Source: Sphingopyxis sp. OPL5
GTDB lineage: Bacteria; Pseudomonadota; Alphaproteobacteria; Sphingomonadales; Sphingomonadaceae
Length of the DNA: 64,000 nt
Assembly (NCBI RefSeq): GCF_003797775.2
Contig: NZ_CP060725.1
Coordinates: 3,094,001-3,158,000 of the forward strand
Direction of reading: 5' to 3'
Part shown: positions 1 to 8,700 of the stretch, in pieces
Layout of the letters: each line of letters opens with the position of its first letter
Position numbering within the stretch: the first letter of the stretch is position 1
Notes under the pieces: model-generated
Database searches by the model: none
What the model was told of the DNA's origin: nothing
The model's input: the letters and a program-made list of their open reading frames with translations, nothing else
Program-made: the position numbers and the translations under genes

Positions 1-170
1 CCCTTCAGGGGAGAGGTACGCAGGCTTGCCAGCTTGCTGGCTAGCCTAAGTAGAGAGGGGTTTGGCTGCGTTCCCCTCTCCAAGCTTCACTAGCTCCTGA
101 CGGAGCAAGCTGCGCTATCCTCTCCCCTCAAGGGGAGAGGGCTTTCGGCGGCTTCTATGTCCAGAACAGC
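1..170. repeat. GC-rich intergenic repeat cluster
   Basis: This non-coding stretch is built from inverted GC-rich blocks: CCCCTCTCC-type arms recur near 75-85 and 120-140. The 21-bp sequence at 24-44 is found again in reverse complement at 30282-30302, beside another CCCCTCCCC/GGGGAGGGG hairpin. This is a dispersed intergenic repeat family of this genome rather than a gene. The left part may continue outside the window. Confidence 0.6.
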
Positions 171-1306: not shown

Positions 1307-1453
1307 ATGAACCTGCCATCCATCGACATCGACGCCATACCGTTGCTCGACACCGCGGTCGGGCTGTTCGGCTCGCTCGCGGCGCCGACCGCGTCTTCGG
1401 GGCCATCGGTCTTCGAGGTGTCGGTCACCGTCGTGCTGATCATCTACGACTGA
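1307..1453 (+). CDS. 48-aa peptide, candidate modified-peptide precursor
   Basis: This short gene begins at an ATG preceded by a strong GGGGAGC site (1294-1300) and ends with TGA at 1451. The peptide has an acidic, Leu/Ile-rich N-terminal half (MNLPSIDIDAIPLLDTAVG, then LFGSLAA), a Pro/Ser/Gly-rich hinge (PTASSGPS), and a beta-branched C-terminus ending VTVVLIIYD. It has no Cys, no signal peptide and little positive charge. That layout (leader-like half, small-residue hinge, hydrophobic end) is typical of ribosomal peptide precursors. Only 52 bp separate it from two overlapping genes with cupin-like and HEAT features. Its role as their substrate is inference; I do not recognise a named family. 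Confidence 0.6.
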   Translation: MNLPSIDIDAIPLLDTAVGLFGSLAAPTASSGPSVFEVSVTVVLIIYD

Positions 1454-1505
1454 CCGGGCCGCGGGCGCGCGCTTCAATGCCGCGCCCGCATTCGGTGACC
1501 GCGCC

Positions 1506-2486
1506 ATGCCCGTCCCGTCCCGTCACGATCATTATCCGCGCGCCGATACCCTGCGCACCGCTGCGATCCGTGCCACCGCGAGCGATCTCGCCGCGGGATG
1601 GCGGGCGGCCGATACGGCGCCCGCCGGCCTGCTCACGGCGCTCGCCGCCGCGAGCGATGCCGAACCCGACCAGGCCATCGTGCGCCTCCGCCCATGGCTC
1701 GCCGACCCGCGCTGGCTCGGGGTACGGCTGGCCGAGGCGCTTGCCCTGCTCGCCGCCGATCCGTTTGCCCGGCCGCCGCTGCGCATCGTCGGCGGGGGCG
1801 GCGGACCGGGCGGTCTGATGCTTGCCGAATGCGGCGCGATCCGCCTGTCGCTGCAATTGCTGCCATTCGAGGCGGCGGCGGCTCCGACGACCGCGCTCTT
1901 CGTGCCCGGCCGCGCCGCGATCCGCGTGCTGGCCGCGGGCGGCGCGCGGCTGACGCTCCACCATGTCCCGCTCTCGGCCGCCGAGGAGGGCGGCGCCTTC
2001 ACCGCCGCCGCTGCGTCGCCCTGTCGCAGCGACCCGCCGCGCGCGCTCGTCGCCGGCGACATGCTCGATCTCGACACCGCGCGCACCAGCTTCACCATCG
2101 CCGGCGCGACCGGCGACGTCCTGCTCCTCGAACTCGCGGTGCAGCCGCCGTCGCCGCTGCCGATGCGCACCTACGAACTGGTCAGCCGCCGCCTAACCCA
2201 CCTCTCCGCCTCCCGCCGCGACAGCAGCTTCCGCGCCATGGCGCTCGCCCTGCTCCGTGAAATGGACCGCCGCGACGCCGCCCCACTGTTCGTCGAAGCC
2301 ACGCTCGCCGAAGATTTCGCCGCCCGCTGGAGCGCGATGCGCGATCTCGTCGCGCTCGACCCGGCGACCGCGCGGCCGCGGCTCGCTGACATGGCGACCA
2401 GCGACCCGCACCCCGAAGTCCGCCGCGCCGCCGTGGCGACACTGGCGCTCTTCATGCCAAAGGTTTCCGACCCATGCCTCGCCTGA
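1506..2486 (+). CDS. HEAT-repeat protein with cupin-like middle
   Basis: A 326-aa cytoplasmic protein of no family I can name. Residues 15-95 are helical. Residues 105-215 alternate strands and turns in a pattern that could be a beta barrel (ALFVPGRAAIRV near 130, LTLHHVPLS near 149, AGDMLDLD near 183). Residues 225-315 are helical repeats ending in DPHPEVRRAAVATLALF, a clear HEAT-type unit. A metal-binding HxH is not evident, so this may be the non-catalytic or substrate-binding partner of the next protein. The stop overlaps the next start by 13 bp, so the two are probably made together. The ATG at 1506 has only a weak ribosome site. Confidence 0.75.
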   Translation: MPVPSRHDHYPRADTLRTAAIRATASDLAAGWRAADTAPAGLLTALAAASDAEPDQAIVRLRPWLADPRWLGVRLAEALALLAADPFARPPLRIVGGGGGPGGLMLAECGAIRLSLQLLPFEAAAAPTTALFVPGRAAIRVLAAGGARLTLHHVPLSAAEEGGAFTAAAASPCRSDPPRALVAGDMLDLDTARTSFTIAGATGDVLLLELAVQPPSPLPMRTYELVSRRLTHLSASRRDSSFRAMALALLREMDRRDAAPLFVEATLAEDFAARWSAMRDLVALDPATARPRLADMATSDPHPEVRRAAVATLALFMPKVSDPCLA

Positions 2487-3358
2487 TCGACCCACCCGCC
2501 GGCGGAGTACTCGACCTTGAAGACGTCACCGCCCGGCTCGACGAAACGGGCGTCGACCTCAGCGACGAAGCGAGTCTCGCCCATGCTGCCCACCTCCTCG
2601 CCGGGCTCGCGCGCAACCGCGACTTCCTCGCCGACCGCGTCATCGCCGAACTCAAGGCGAGCTTCGCCGGCCAGCTCGAACTCAGCCGCTATTCGGCGCA
2701 GGTCTTTCTGCTCCACCGTAGCCCGCGCGGCCATTTCCTCCGCGCCAATCTCTGGCCCGCCGCGACCGATGCCGCCTACACCGCCAGCGGCGCGGCGGTC
2801 TTCGCCTATGGCCTGCCGCACGACCATAATTTCAGCTTCCTCACCACCGGCTATTGGGGACCCGGCTACATCAGCGACTATTATGACTATGACCCCGAAG
2901 CGGTCGACGGCTGCCTAGGCGAGCCGCTGAACCTCCGCTTCGTCGAGCGCAGCAGCTTGAGCGAAGGCAGGATGATGCTGTACCGCGCTCACCGCGATAT
3001 CCACAGCCAGCTCCCACCGACAAACCTCTCGGTCAGCCTCAACATCATGGAGGAAGGCGAGCATATCCCCTGGCGCGACCAATATATCGTCGACCTGGAA
3101 AGCGGGACGATTGCGCGCCGCCCGACGCTGACCCAGGCCGAGATGCTGCTCCGCTGCGCCGTGCACCTGACCGACAATGGCAAGGACATCGCCGAGCAGT
3201 TCGCGAAGGTGCACCCGGTGCCGCGCGTCCGCGCCAACGCCATCGCGGCGCTGGCGGCGGTTGAAGAAGGCAACGCCCGCGCGGCGGTGCTCGAACGCGG
3301 ATTGTACGATCGCGACGCACGGGTGCGCGATGATTGCACGCGCTGGCTGGGGTTGTAG
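2474..3358 (+). CDS. 3-His cupin plus HEAT protein, candidate peptide-modifying oxygenase
   Basis: A 294-aa soluble protein. Residues 72-210 look like a cupin. GLPHDHNF (H116, H118) followed by strand and turn residues matches the first cupin motif of thiol-dioxygenase-like enzymes. YRAHRDIHSQLPP (H173, H177) followed by SVSLNIM can supply the third histidine. Residues 220-294 form HEAT-type helices (VHPVPRVRANAIAALAAV). A 3-His non-haem iron centre is inferred. The architecture resembles the upstream gene, so the two may be diverged paralogues acting as a pair. The likely substrate, from position only, is the 48-aa peptide encoded at 1307. No transporter or protease gene lies beside it. Confidence 0.7.
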   Translation: MPRLIDPPAGGVLDLEDVTARLDETGVDLSDEASLAHAAHLLAGLARNRDFLADRVIAELKASFAGQLELSRYSAQVFLLHRSPRGHFLRANLWPAATDAAYTASGAAVFAYGLPHDHNFSFLTTGYWGPGYISDYYDYDPEAVDGCLGEPLNLRFVERSSLSEGRMMLYRAHRDIHSQLPPTNLSVSLNIMEEGEHIPWRDQYIVDLESGTIARRPTLTQAEMLLRCAVHLTDNGKDIAEQFAKVHPVPRVRANAIAALAAVEEGNARAAVLERGLYDRDARVRDDCTRWLGL

Positions 3359-3402: not shown

Positions 3403-5223
3403 ATGACAACTTCTCTTTCGCATATCCGTAATTTCTCGATCATCGCGCACATCGACCATGGCAAGTCGACGCTCGCCGACCGGTTGATCCAGTTCACCGG
3501 CGGGCTGACCGCGCGTGAGATGTCGGCGCAAGTCCTTGATAACATGGACATCGAGAAGGAGCGCGGGATCACCATCAAGGCGCAGACGGTGCGCCTGTCG
3601 TACAAGGCGCATGATGGTGAGACCTATGAGCTCAACCTGATGGACACGCCCGGCCATGTCGACTTCGCCTATGAAGTGTCGCGCAGCCTGGCGGCGTGCG
3701 AGGGCGCGCTGCTGGTCGTCGACGCGGCGCAGGGGGTCGAGGCGCAGACGCTGGCGAATGTCTATCAGTCGATCGAGCACGACCATGAAATCGTGCCGGT
3801 GATCAACAAGATCGACCTGCCCGCGGCCGACGTCGACAAGGTGAAGGCCGAGATCGAGGACATCATCGGGCTGCCCGCCGACGACGCGGTGCTGGCCAGC
3901 GCGAAGGCCGGCATCGGCATCGAGGAAGCGCTGGAGGCGATCGTCACGCGCATCCCGCCGCCGAAGGGCGATGCCAATGCGCCGCTCGTCGCGATGCTCG
4001 TCGACAGCTGGTACGACCCCTATCTCGGCGTCGTCATCCTGATCCGCGTGATCGATGGCGTGCTGAAAAAAGGCCAGCAGATCAAGTTCATGCAGGCGGG
4101 CACCACCCATCTGATCGACCGCGTCGGCTGTTTCACGCCCAAGATCGAGCAGCTGACCGAACTCGGCCCCGGCGAGATCGGCTTCATCACCGCGCAGATC
4201 AAGGACGTCGCGCAGGCGCGCGTCGGCGACACCGTGACCGACGCCAAGAAACCCGCGGCGCAGGCGCTGCCGGGGTTCAAGGAAGTCCAGCCCGTCGTGT
4301 TCTGCGGCATGTTCCCGACCGACGCCAACGACTTCGAGAAGCTCCGCGAGAGCATCCAGAAGCTGCGGCTCAACGACGCGAGCTTCAGTTTCGAGATGGA
4401 GAGCAGCGCGGCCTTGGGCTTCGGCTTTCGCTGCGGTTTCCTCGGCCTGTTGCACCTCGAGATCATCCAGGAGCGGCTGACCCGCGAGTACGACCTCGAC
4501 CTGATCACCACCGCGCCGTCGGTGGTGTACAAATTGAAGCTCGGCCATACCAAGAATGAGGCGGCGAAGGAGATCGAGCTCCACAACCCCGCCGACATGC
4601 CCGACCCGAACCGCATCGACGAGATCGAGGAACCGTGGATCGAGGCGGTGATTTACGTGCCCGACGACTATCTCGGCCCGATCCTGAAGCTGTGCCAGGA
4701 CCGCCGCGGGGTGCAGAAGAATTTGACCTATGTCGGCGGCCGCGCGCAAATCACCTATGAACTGCCGCTCAACGAGGTGGTGTTCGATTTCTATGACCGG
4801 CTGAAGAGCATCAGCCGCGGTTACGCCAGCTTCGACTATCACCAGATCGGCCACCGCCCCGGCGACCTCGTCAAGATGAGCATCCTCGTCAACAACGAGC
4901 CGGTCGACGCGCTGAGCATGATCGTCCACCGCGGCACCGCCGAAACGCGCGGCCGCGGCATGTGCGAGCGGCTGAAGGACCTGATCCCGCGCCACATGTT
5001 CAAGATCCCGATCCAGGCCGCGATCGGCGGCAAGGTGATCGCCCGCGAAACCATCGCCGCGCTGCGCAAGGACGTGACCGCCAAATGCTATGGCGGCGAC
5101 GCGACCCGCAAGAAAAAGCTGCTGGAAAAGCAGAAAGAGGGTAAAAAGCGGATGCGGGAATATGGGAATGTGAACATCCCACAGGAGGCGTTTATCGCGG
5201 CGCTGCGGATGGGGGAGGAGTAG
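3403..5223 (+). CDS. lepA: Elongation factor 4 (LepA), ribosomal back-translocase GTPase
   Basis: A 606-aa translational GTPase of normal family length. The G motifs are clear: AHIDHGKS at 15-22, RGIT at 54-57, DTPGH at 81-85 and NKID at 135-138. Domains II, III and V follow, then the LepA-specific C-terminal domain with the lysine-rich [19 protein letters not shown] segment. LepA binds ribosomes at the cytoplasmic membrane and helps under ionic or temperature stress and in initiation. The gene stands alone, 44 bp after the cupin/HEAT gene, and lacks lepB beside it. Identification is secure. Confidence 0.98.
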
Positions 5224-5766: not shown

Positions 5767-8700
5767 CGCGAACTCGGATTCTGCTTTGGACTCGCGGCCC
5801 GGATTTCCGTGGCGATCGAGGCCTTGAGCATCGCAATTTGGCCGAGCAATTTCTTGTAGTCGTCGTTGCTCATGTTCTTCGCTTCGGTCACCGCTGTGGT
5901 GAGAGCATTGAGGGCTTCCCTGTGGTCGGGCACAAAGATCGTACCATTGCCGCCGCCGACGGGCCTAGGAAACTCGTCGATCAGCGCCTTGAGCCGCACG
6001 ATTTGCGCCTCGAGTTCCAAGTTGGGACCGGTCTCGCCCCCGGCTCCAGGCGTCATCTTCGAAAGCCGTGTCACTTCCACGGTCAGCCGATCGGTGATAT
6101 CATTTAGCTTGACGAGCGCCTCGGGGGCGAGGCCAATCTTAATGCCGTCGGCGGCGAGATCCTGCGCTTCCTTCGACAGCTTCAACTCGACCGGATCGAT
6201 GCTGACCTTGGCGGGCGCGATCTGGAGCGCATCGCGCAACTTGCGTGCCGCTTCGTCGCCGACCGTCAAACCCGCGCTGACAAGACCGGCGGTCACGACG
6301 GTGCTCGTGATCAGCTTGGCGGTGCTCATCGCTTCGACAGCGGCGACCAAGCCGTTCCAGCCGCGCGCGGCGGGGGGTGGGGGCGTGGCCTCGATCGCCA
6401 TCGAGTATTCGTCGGGGTGAGTTCCCGCCGTGCGCGACACCAACTGTTCGCCGCGCGAGAGCGGATAGGCGGCCTGGACCTTTGCCACGGTGGCTTCAAG
6501 GTCTTCGATCTCGACCGGCGTCGGCATCGCGCCCCGGCCATAGCTGTCCATCGCGTCGCACAGGTCCTCAGCGGACACGTCGCCGAGCAGGCGATAGCTT
6601 TCGAACTGCGTCTCGTTGAAGAACTGGTCGAGCGTGCTGTGGTGCGGAAAGGTCTGCCCGCCACGCCGGCTGGTCTGCGCGTAATGGGTCAGCGCGGGCG
6701 GTTCGTCGCCGTTCAGGATCGGCTTCACGCAGTAGATCTCGCCATCGACGAGTCCCTCGTTGAGCGCCGAATAGCCGATCCGCCCCACGACCACTCGCTG
6801 GTTCTGGCCCGGCCCCGGTTGACCCGGCAGCGTCGGCGGCAGGTCGATCCGTACCCCGAAATCGACCTGCGCCTTGCGAATTGCGTTGTGCAGGTCCGAA
6901 TATCTGAATTCGCCGTCGCAGGTCCCGTCGATCACCACGATCCGATGGCACCGTCGCCGCACCATCTCGTAAAGCCCGAGATTGTCAAAGTGGCCACCAT
7001 CGGACAGGTATAGCCACGATTTGTCATCGGCCAAACCCAGTGCTTCCTTGACGACATGCAGCAGCCGACCCTTCGGCTCTTCCTCGCGCGCCTGATCTTC
7101 GGGCGCATCGGGATGTGGCAGCCACCAGCCCAGCCGCACGTTGAAGAAGGTCATCACCATCGTGACAAACGGAGCGCTGTGATAGCCCATATTGGGGGTC
7201 GCCGCCGCGCCTGAGATGGTCATCGCGCGGCCCAGCGTGAGCCCGCCCTGCTTGTCTGGCTCCGTGCCTGCTTTGCCGCCATAGTCTTCGGTGTCGGCAT
7301 AGCCGGTGCAGGCCGAGCCGCAGTGCAGTGCGGTCGCTGTGAAGGACGCCGCCTTGCGTTCCTGCCAGTCGCGCCGGTCAGGCGAGCTGCGCGTCAGGTT
7401 GAGCGTCATATTGACGACGTGAAACAGGACAGGTCGATCGCTATCCGGCATTTTTTGGCTAGGGAACAACTGCGCGAGTGCGACGTCGTCGGCGGGATCG
7501 AGATCGGTGAAAGGATCAGGATTGCGTACGCTGCGCGCGGTGCCGAGGTAGGCACGGGTCAGGCGGTTACCATACATTGCGTGGAGCGAAAACCGGTTGG
7601 CGCCGACGAAGAATGAAATGACGACCGCGATGCCGAGGAAGGCGGCAAGGACCGCGAGCGAAATTAGTAGTTGCGACGGCGATGATCCGTTATCGAGCCA
7701 GAGCGCATGATCAAACGCTTCGACCCAGTCGATCGACCGGGGAGCCGGCAATTCCCTCCAGGTGGCAATCCGACCGAACAGGGTATTGACCGCAATGGCG
7801 GCCGCCACGAGAATAGCCAGCACCGCCGCCGCGCCCGTCAAGTTGAATAGTTGGGCGCCAAGCCTGTCAAACGCGCTTTGCGCTTCGCGCCTGATCCGCG
7901 CACCATTGCGGCTCCAGAAGCCGATCATTCCCACCAGCGCGGCGAGCAGTCCGCCACCAATACCTGCCGCGCCCAGATTCGCAGAATCGGCCTGTTTTGC
8001 GTGCAAGCCGATATCCCTGAGCCAGTGCGCGAAGTCATTTCCGGAAACGATAGCAAGCACAAGTCGCGGTAAATAGATCAGCACCCCAAACACAAATATC
8101 CAGCTGACTGCCGCGATCAGTGCGACGGCCGCATAGCGGGAAATTTTCTCGCGCGTTCCTTCTGTGACGTTGAATCCGCCCAGTACTGCCAGCGATAACA
8201 TCACCCAACCTGTGCCCAGCAGCGCCGGAACGCCTAGCGCAATCCACGTGAGGCTTAACGCCGGCCGCCAAGATTCCAGCCCCGGGACCTGTGCGAAGGC
8301 GCCCCATAATCCGATCAGCACATACGGAACCGTCGCAACGGCCAACAGCAGAGGAATCCAGACTAATAGGTTGAATATCAAATTGCGTACGAAAATCGTG
8401 AACACCGTCAGCGTATCAAGCGACACGCCCCACGATGGCGACATGTAATTGCTGAAGCTGCGCAAGCGGCGGATCGGGTGGATCGGTTCGACCTGCCCGC
8501 CCCCACCGTTGCCGCCGCTGCTTTTGAGTTCTTCCCAGTCGAACCCGGGCTCGCCGCGCCAGCGCGATAACCAACTACCCGCATATCCGCCGCCCGAAAC
8601 GGTGGAGAGGTAGTGAAAATCCTTGATTCGGCCCTTGCGTGCCAAGCCCTGCAACACCCCAAGGCAGAAAGTCCCGCTGCGGATTCCTCCACCAGAAAAG

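Follow-up and report, generated by a model that had tools for sequence, protein, structure and literature searches.

Three genes lie together in the genome of Sphingopyxis sp. OPL5, and they raise the question of whether they work as one system and, if so, on what substrate. Within the window (the whole stretch of 64,000 nucleotides that was analysed), all three are on the forward strand, as is every feature below unless stated otherwise: a gene for a 48-aa peptide (1307–1453), gene A (326 aa, 1506–2486), and gene C (294 aa, 2474–3358). The original prediction read them as a peptide-modification locus of no described class, in which a cupin enzyme hydroxylates or oxidises the peptide with help from a HEAT-repeat partner. 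We consider it likely that the core of the peptide is modified by C with help from A, as a class of the RiPP type.

Layout and distribution of the operon

Every coordinate of the predicted layout, including that of the peptide reading frame, agrees with the sequence. A ribosome-binding site (GGGGAG, 1294–1299) precedes the peptide gene, and a purine-rich site stands before the start in the own-genus copies as well. The gap between the peptide gene and A is 52 bp (1454–1505), and A and C overlap by 13 bp. Two further genes were considered as operon members and set aside: the gene 3′ of C (3403–5223), which we take to be lepA, and a beta-propeller gene of secreted type on the reverse strand 5′ of the peptide gene (180–1160), which is TIGR03866-like but falls below the TIGR03866 cut-off. 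Neither lies beside the trio in loci of other families, and in genome G005 they adjoin, about 400 bp apart, with no trace of the operon; both were therefore left outside it. In several Sphingopyxis the propeller gene adjoins the trio, a pairing absent from the other genera compared.

All counts given here rest on sampled genomes. Within the genus, C was found in 29 of 36 sampled genomes, with fragments only in four (G010, G013, G019, G034). The same draw as a whole gave 29 of 60 genomes, with none beyond the genus at that sensitivity, and a scan of named genomes added 27 loci, partly from the same strains. In the family, a C profile matched 88 of 249 genomes, spread over 41 of 89 genera; it also matched 5 of 387 drawn from the class and 17 of 397 drawn from the phylum, as well as 2 of 370 from the class of genome G766 and 5 of 98 from its family; each draw includes its centre genome, and the draws overlap. 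Four genomes (G739, G1287, G1152, G1346) have two well-matching places for C, and in G739 and G1287 the peptides beside the two places differ in core type. Five genomes of one genus (G1137, G1213, G1266, G1309, G1340) have a stop codon within the matched range of C, possibly reflecting a shorter C or decay.

The peptide is largely found where C is found. Its profile was searched alone with the same settings and handles as the C draw of 249 genomes, which we take to be the same set, and it matched 83 genomes, 82 with C and one (G1326) without. Six had C with no match to the peptide profile (G604, G1178, G1196, G1298, G1330, G1351), and 160 had neither (Fisher p 2.4e-57, with kinship ignored). 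A genus mate of G1326, G1292, holds only a remnant of C, and in G1266 the peptide lies 40 kb from C. In 131 of 133 loci (L059–L191), or 101 of 103 after repeats were removed, A directly precedes C on the same strand; the exceptions are L112, at a contig edge, and L191, a remnant. At 86 of the 101 distinct loci, a leader-profile match (E < 0.01) is in place upstream of A. Nine of the 15 loci with no match at this threshold have candidates chosen by eye that share a Val/Ile-rich end (L063, L084, L092, L094, L095, L172, L186, L187, L188), and two (L189, L190) encode another kind of peptide, whose leader is of the classic double-glycine type. No convincing peptide was found in L064, L081, L131, or L169, with L064 and L131 giving none by the filters applied. 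These counts bear out the expectation that a short peptide gene would stand upstream in other genomes (82 of the 88 family genomes with C) and agree with the linked short precursor gene of a RiPP locus. As far as the sequences go, the trio is conserved, linked, and co-occurring.

When 26 loci were compared, the gene families common to the Sphingomonadaceae loci proved to be housekeeping-like, with shared neighbours that include two thioesterases (10 loci each), a decarboxylase, and a penicillin-binding protein. These neighbours reflect a common chromosomal place, and no recurring transporter or leader protease was found among the annotated neighbours in the Sphingomonadaceae loci. Relatives are also present in two plasmid records, from Alteromonas stellipolaris and Vibrio sp. 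ED002. On the Alteromonas plasmid, pASTE61-200, the overlap of A and C is again 13 bp, and HlyD, MacB-type, and ABC-2 transporter genes surround the operon, much like a RiPP export cluster; only this plasmid has transporters on both sides. This locus (L063) has two unannotated candidate peptides (6621–6737 and 6836–6961) between the MacB-type transporter and A, and a second ABC transporter 3′ of C. At L189 (genome G1437) and L190 (G1408), relatives of A and C lie 3′ of a 53-aa peptide whose leader is of the double-glycine type (MKELTLEDAEFVSGGG), and an NRPS-like adenylation reading frame is nearby. The two loci are perhaps another branch with ABC-type export.

The operon is dispensable, and it decays or has been lost in several Sphingopyxis. 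Fragments of C are kept in G034 and G010, an altered peptide with fragments in G013, and in G019 the peptide and A are kept with a C that lacks about residues 97–235. Two more A genes of the genus seem damaged, one being without its first 178 residues (L036) and one having a frame change (L051). Sporadic loss, a short hydrophobic peptide, and two plasmid relatives could all be features of a toxin–antitoxin or phage-defence unit. However, PADLOC gave no match for A, C, or two relatives, phages gave no match, and the chromosomal neighbours are conserved in the family, and we regard such a unit as highly improbable. Among viral contigs, seven stretches fitted a pattern, with no relatives among them.

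The peptide and its flanking sequences

In the genus Sphingopyxis, tblastn recovered 32 distinct copies of the peptide, 31 of them intact; the copy at L029 belongs to a decayed locus. By this search the reading frame is present in each own-genus locus that reaches 5′ of A, with the exception of the divergent locus of G017, whose divergent peptide was recovered by profile instead. The dN/dS of the 31 intact copies is 0.32, pooled over pairs with no tree correction, and on the same basis it is 0.19 in the leader, 0.55 in the middle or linker, and 0.40 in the core. Judged from its aligned copies, the peptide is a real, conserved gene under purifying selection. Neither Pfam nor NCBIfam returned a match for it.

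In the window, the leader covers about residues 1–23 (MNLPSIDIDAIPLLDTAVGLFGS) and the Val/Ile-rich core about residues 34–48 (SVFEVSVTVVLIIYD), with a variable linker between them. The leader consensus is MxLPxIDLxxLPDLDTxxGLFGS, and four alignment positions are widely kept: P17 (102 of 107), L19 (99 of 107), G24 (94 of 107), and G27 (102 of 107). The leader-like half and hydrophobic end noticed in the single peptide thus recur across copies, the leader conserved and the Val/Ile-rich core variable. Tighter constraint on the leader than on the linker and core is also a trait of RiPP precursors, and it is joined here to the leader–core organisation that these positions mark out. The GLFGS that closes the leader is similar to a double-glycine-type site and, by this likeness, is a candidate cleavage site.

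The core type in Sphingopyxis is SVFEIAVTIALIIHD. An Erythrobacter-type core begins DDRIVVIMVYVYD, and further types are DDRIVVIMVYVYDTMPPESLL, EVGGPLCLGVVVAVLLAL, and FDIVIAVIVSAS, each with its kin. Common to the cores is a Val/Ile-rich stretch of about nine residues, often with an acidic residue ahead of it and an aromatic–acidic pair behind, and this stretch keeps the core recognisable despite differing flanks. No core residue is universal among the peptides, and hence none stands out as the modified position. Cys is absent from all 31 intact Sphingopyxis copies; some peptides of the family have Cys in the core (e.g., L135, L151).

At alignment position 52/53, Tyr is found in 68 of 103 peptides and Asp or Glu in 88 of 100. 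These residues would suit a peptide that acts as a carrier, with C assembling or oxidising a small molecule or cofactor on it, for example at a terminal Tyr/His/Asn–Asp pair. TglA is a carrier peptide of this kind, for 3-thiaglutamate, and vertical inheritance without clustered export would suit an intracellular product. However, the Tyr position holds His, Asn, or another residue in a third of the copies (in Sphingopyxis, 15 of 31 have Tyr, 10 His, 5 Asn, and 1 Ala), and many peptides extend past it. We consider a carrier role decidedly unlikely.

A profile search across 131 loci found no tandem precursors. The peptide might also go unmodified and be a small subunit, structural or regulatory in role, docking on A–C as a beta strand, with another molecule as the substrate. 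Its alternating hydrophobic core could extend a barrel, most family genomes have one peptide copy per operon, and the lack of a recurring transporter or protease among annotated neighbours would fit as well. The low dN/dS of the leader relative to the linker and core, however, suits a substrate better, as do core types that differ widely behind a single leader type. A subunit role seems unlikely to us, and we continue to prefer a peptide whose core is modified.

Upstream of the peptide gene, an element (ATTACGATAAGTTAACT, 1217–1233) is conserved about 90 bp before the start. Its best match lies 83–94 bp before the start in all 32 own-genus copies, with 13–17 of the 17 letters, and the 19-mer searched has only one genomic place within 3 mismatches. 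A looser form, picked after inspection of the data, was found in 31 of 85 other loci and in none of the controls (85 with reversed text, 1700 shuffled). The element is probably a promoter or operator. A CtrA-type reading was dropped because the spacing does not fit. The pattern ATTAC-N6-TTAAYT is an imperfect inverted repeat, specific to the operon and found family-wide.

Between the peptide gene and A lies a G+C-rich stem-loop with a 9-bp stem (1461–1489). Of 30 own-genus intergenic stretches, 21 contain a stem that pairs without interruption over 9 bp or more, and 18 reach p ≤ 0.05 against dinucleotide shuffles; the window's own stem, at p 0.11, is not significant alone. The 5′ arms comprise 18 distinct sequences, so pairing is kept while the sequence changes, and no clear T-run was found at the stem-loop. 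Its presence in many Sphingopyxis could point to an attenuator, with the short reading frame as an upstream leader peptide controlling translation of A and C. However, there is selection on the amino acids, the leader motif persists throughout the family even though the gap to A varies, and it does not consist of rare or regulatory codons in a row. An attenuator is, in our judgement, barely credible, and the precursor reading is retained. A palindromic repeat (CCTCTCCCCTCAAGGGGAGAGG) lies further upstream, at window positions 119–140. Similar repeats seem to extend through the C-terminal tails of A in L004, L009, L019, L032, and others (PPSGETGREGGGGPG...), and palindromic repeats may account for the contig ends just before C in L008, L014, and L022.

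Protein C and its relative A

The model of C (pLDDT 84.0, pTM 0.73) predicts a helical N-terminus, a cupin barrel of the thiol-dioxygenase fold (residues 77–215, 2702–3118), and C-terminal HEAT-like helices (residues 221–293, 3134–3352). Among the matches listed, the nearest solved folds are thiol dioxygenases, which make up 49 of 50 Foldseek rows (counting YubC as a thiol dioxygenase) and 50 of 50 VIA rows. The HEAT units expected at the C-terminus are reflected in a weak Pfam match (PF13646, E 0.0097, below the curated cut-off), and short homologues, L064 (225 aa) and L095 (234 aa) among them, do not have these helices. For the enzyme domain, Pfam and NCBIfam offered no family, with no Pfam match there at E ≤ 1, and CDO_I (PF05995) gave no row for C at E ≤ 1 or for eight distant homologues at E ≤ 0.5. 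Comparison with a cysteine-dioxygenase profile gave a probability of 65.9%, and a PDB sequence search with the C profile returned only HEAT-type or chance rows. For the three genes together, functional names in Pfam and NCBIfam are limited to HEAT.

The HDH (116–118) and HRDIH (173–177) strings that had been placed in cupin positions are both present. H116-D117-H118 (2819–2827) supplies two presumed iron ligands and H177 (3002–3004) the third; H116, H118, and H177 align with the three iron histidines of thiol dioxygenases and are present in all 137 rows that could be scored of 139 (L144 and the remnant L191 have no residues at the triad, and a few genes are represented twice). H173 was rejected as an iron ligand, being His in only 116 of 139 rows compared with the invariant H177. 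Further conserved residues are R90 (136 of 137 rows), Q179 (137), and N190 (136). The HxD/E...H motif of 2-oxoglutarate or JmjC enzymes was not found, the third position of the first motif being His in 137 of 137 scorable rows, and DUF692 (MNIO) had no Pfam match in A or C at E ≤ 1.

Beyond the ligands, C departs from the thiol dioxygenases. Ser188 is kept and aligns with their triad Ser, but Asn190 and Met192 stand where the triad has His and Tyr; across the 137 scorable rows, position 192 is occupied by Met, Val, Leu, Ile, or Cys and in no case by Tyr. C thus combines a CDO-type cupin fold and three His ligands, the latter by alignment and conservation, with neither the Ser-His-Tyr triad nor a CDO_I match. 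Because the His and Tyr are absent, the reaction cannot be transferred from the fold, and the changed triad, together with Sphingopyxis peptides that have no Cys, makes ordinary thiol oxidation (sulfinic acid formation) unlikely. On the strength of the model, C is probably a non-heme iron enzyme with a thiol-dioxygenase fold, and its reaction is probably an O2-dependent oxidation rather than the formation of a sulfinic acid.

A is predicted to be built in the same way (pLDDT 92.6, pTM 0.85), with a helical N-terminus, a cupin-type barrel without metal histidines (residues 93–234, 1782–2207), and C-terminal HEAT repeats (residues 238–314, 2217–2447; PF13646, E 1.5e-7). The HDH string, searched on its own after residue 60 of each match, occurs in 1 of 131. 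In hhalign, A matched the C profile with a probability of 97.0 over 247 columns and a cysteine-dioxygenase profile with a probability of 5.0. VIA-align linked the model to a thiol-dioxygenase-type fold, and Foldseek ranked vicilins first; the tie of A to the cysteine-dioxygenase fold therefore comes from its kinship with C and from VIA-align, not from direct profile comparison. A PDB sequence search with the A profile returned mostly HEAT-type repeat proteins, and an RRE (PqqD-like winged helix) had no match in A in Pfam or NCBIfam. The HEAT units and the beta-rich middle without histidines were correctly foreseen, but since A is a relative of C with the same architecture, the proposed HEAT partner is probably a pseudoenzyme, acting with C, and not a bare HEAT protein. 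The three-His set, the lost His and Tyr, and the kinship of A and C can be read directly from the aligned sequences; the folds of both proteins are predictions.

Proposed mechanism and known systems

We propose that the three genes form one peptide-modification operon. The 48-aa peptide would be a RiPP-type precursor, its conserved leader joined by a variable linker to a Val/Ile-rich core, and C would be an O2-using 3-His non-heme iron enzyme that modifies this core. By analogy with the partners of other peptide-modifying iron enzymes, A, as the metal-free relative of C, would most likely pair with it and hold the leader. The likeliest sites of core oxidation would be the Val/Ile segment or the acidic or aromatic residues that flank it, the leader would be removed by a protease encoded elsewhere, and the stem-loop 3′ of the peptide gene would probably keep the level of the precursor above that of the enzymes. 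Iron, O2, the A–C pairing, leader binding, oxidation or hydroxylation of the core, and leader removal are steps that we infer rather than ones seen as a product. The more specific proposal, that C no longer acts on thiols and instead oxidises core residues, either unactivated Val/Ile or the acidic or aromatic residues beside them, while its dead paralogue holds the leader, is offered tentatively, at a little under an even chance.

The reading as a peptide-modification locus is supported, and none of the three cases that the original prediction had named as counting against it appeared: homologues do have a short peptide nearby, the peptides do share leader residues, and the model of C, with its thiol-dioxygenase neighbours and aligned histidines, does point to a metal site. 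Searches of the open-access literature found no paper on the set of peptide, A, and C (subscription papers lie largely outside it), and a thiol-dioxygenase-fold enzyme was not found in open-access RiPP literature. If the reading is correct, the operon would be a RiPP class with an enzyme fold not met in open-access RiPP papers, carried by roughly one in three of the Sphingomonadaceae genomes sampled. A cysteine-dioxygenase scaffold would have been turned from thiols to peptide side chains, and a paralogous pseudoenzyme would serve as the substrate holder. The trio is a compact three-gene system that is testable in E. coli.

Several known systems resemble parts of this one. In the proteusins (polytheonamide), Val is hydroxylated and a Val/Ile-rich core is the target of an iron oxygenase, although their leader and enzyme families differ from those of the trio. 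The likeness of C to thiol dioxygenases (cysteine dioxygenase, 3-mercaptopropionate dioxygenase, PCO, ADO) covers the predicted fold, the HDH with a distant His, and the conserved Ser. The triad of MDO is reported as Ser155-His157-Tyr159 (PMC10966181), whereas C has Asn190 and Met192 in place of the triad His and Tyr, added HEAT repeats, a pseudoenzyme partner, and, within the genus, peptides without Cys. MbnB/MbnC and TglH/TglI each pair an iron enzyme with a dedicated partner beside a short precursor, according to two papers (PMC8888699, PMC9016710), and the trio is alike in having a probable iron enzyme, a partner, and an adjoining short precursor. Unlike in these MNIO (DUF692) systems, C belongs to another enzyme family, and its partner A is a relative of the enzyme itself. 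PbsQ, in the biphenomycin-type pbs cluster, is described as a cupin-like iron hydroxylase that acts on a RiPP precursor, is related to the JmjC-domain protein BpmG, and is one of several pbs enzymes (PMC12257519). In comparison with PbsQ, C is of the thiol-dioxygenase type, carries a 3-His set, and has only A nearby.
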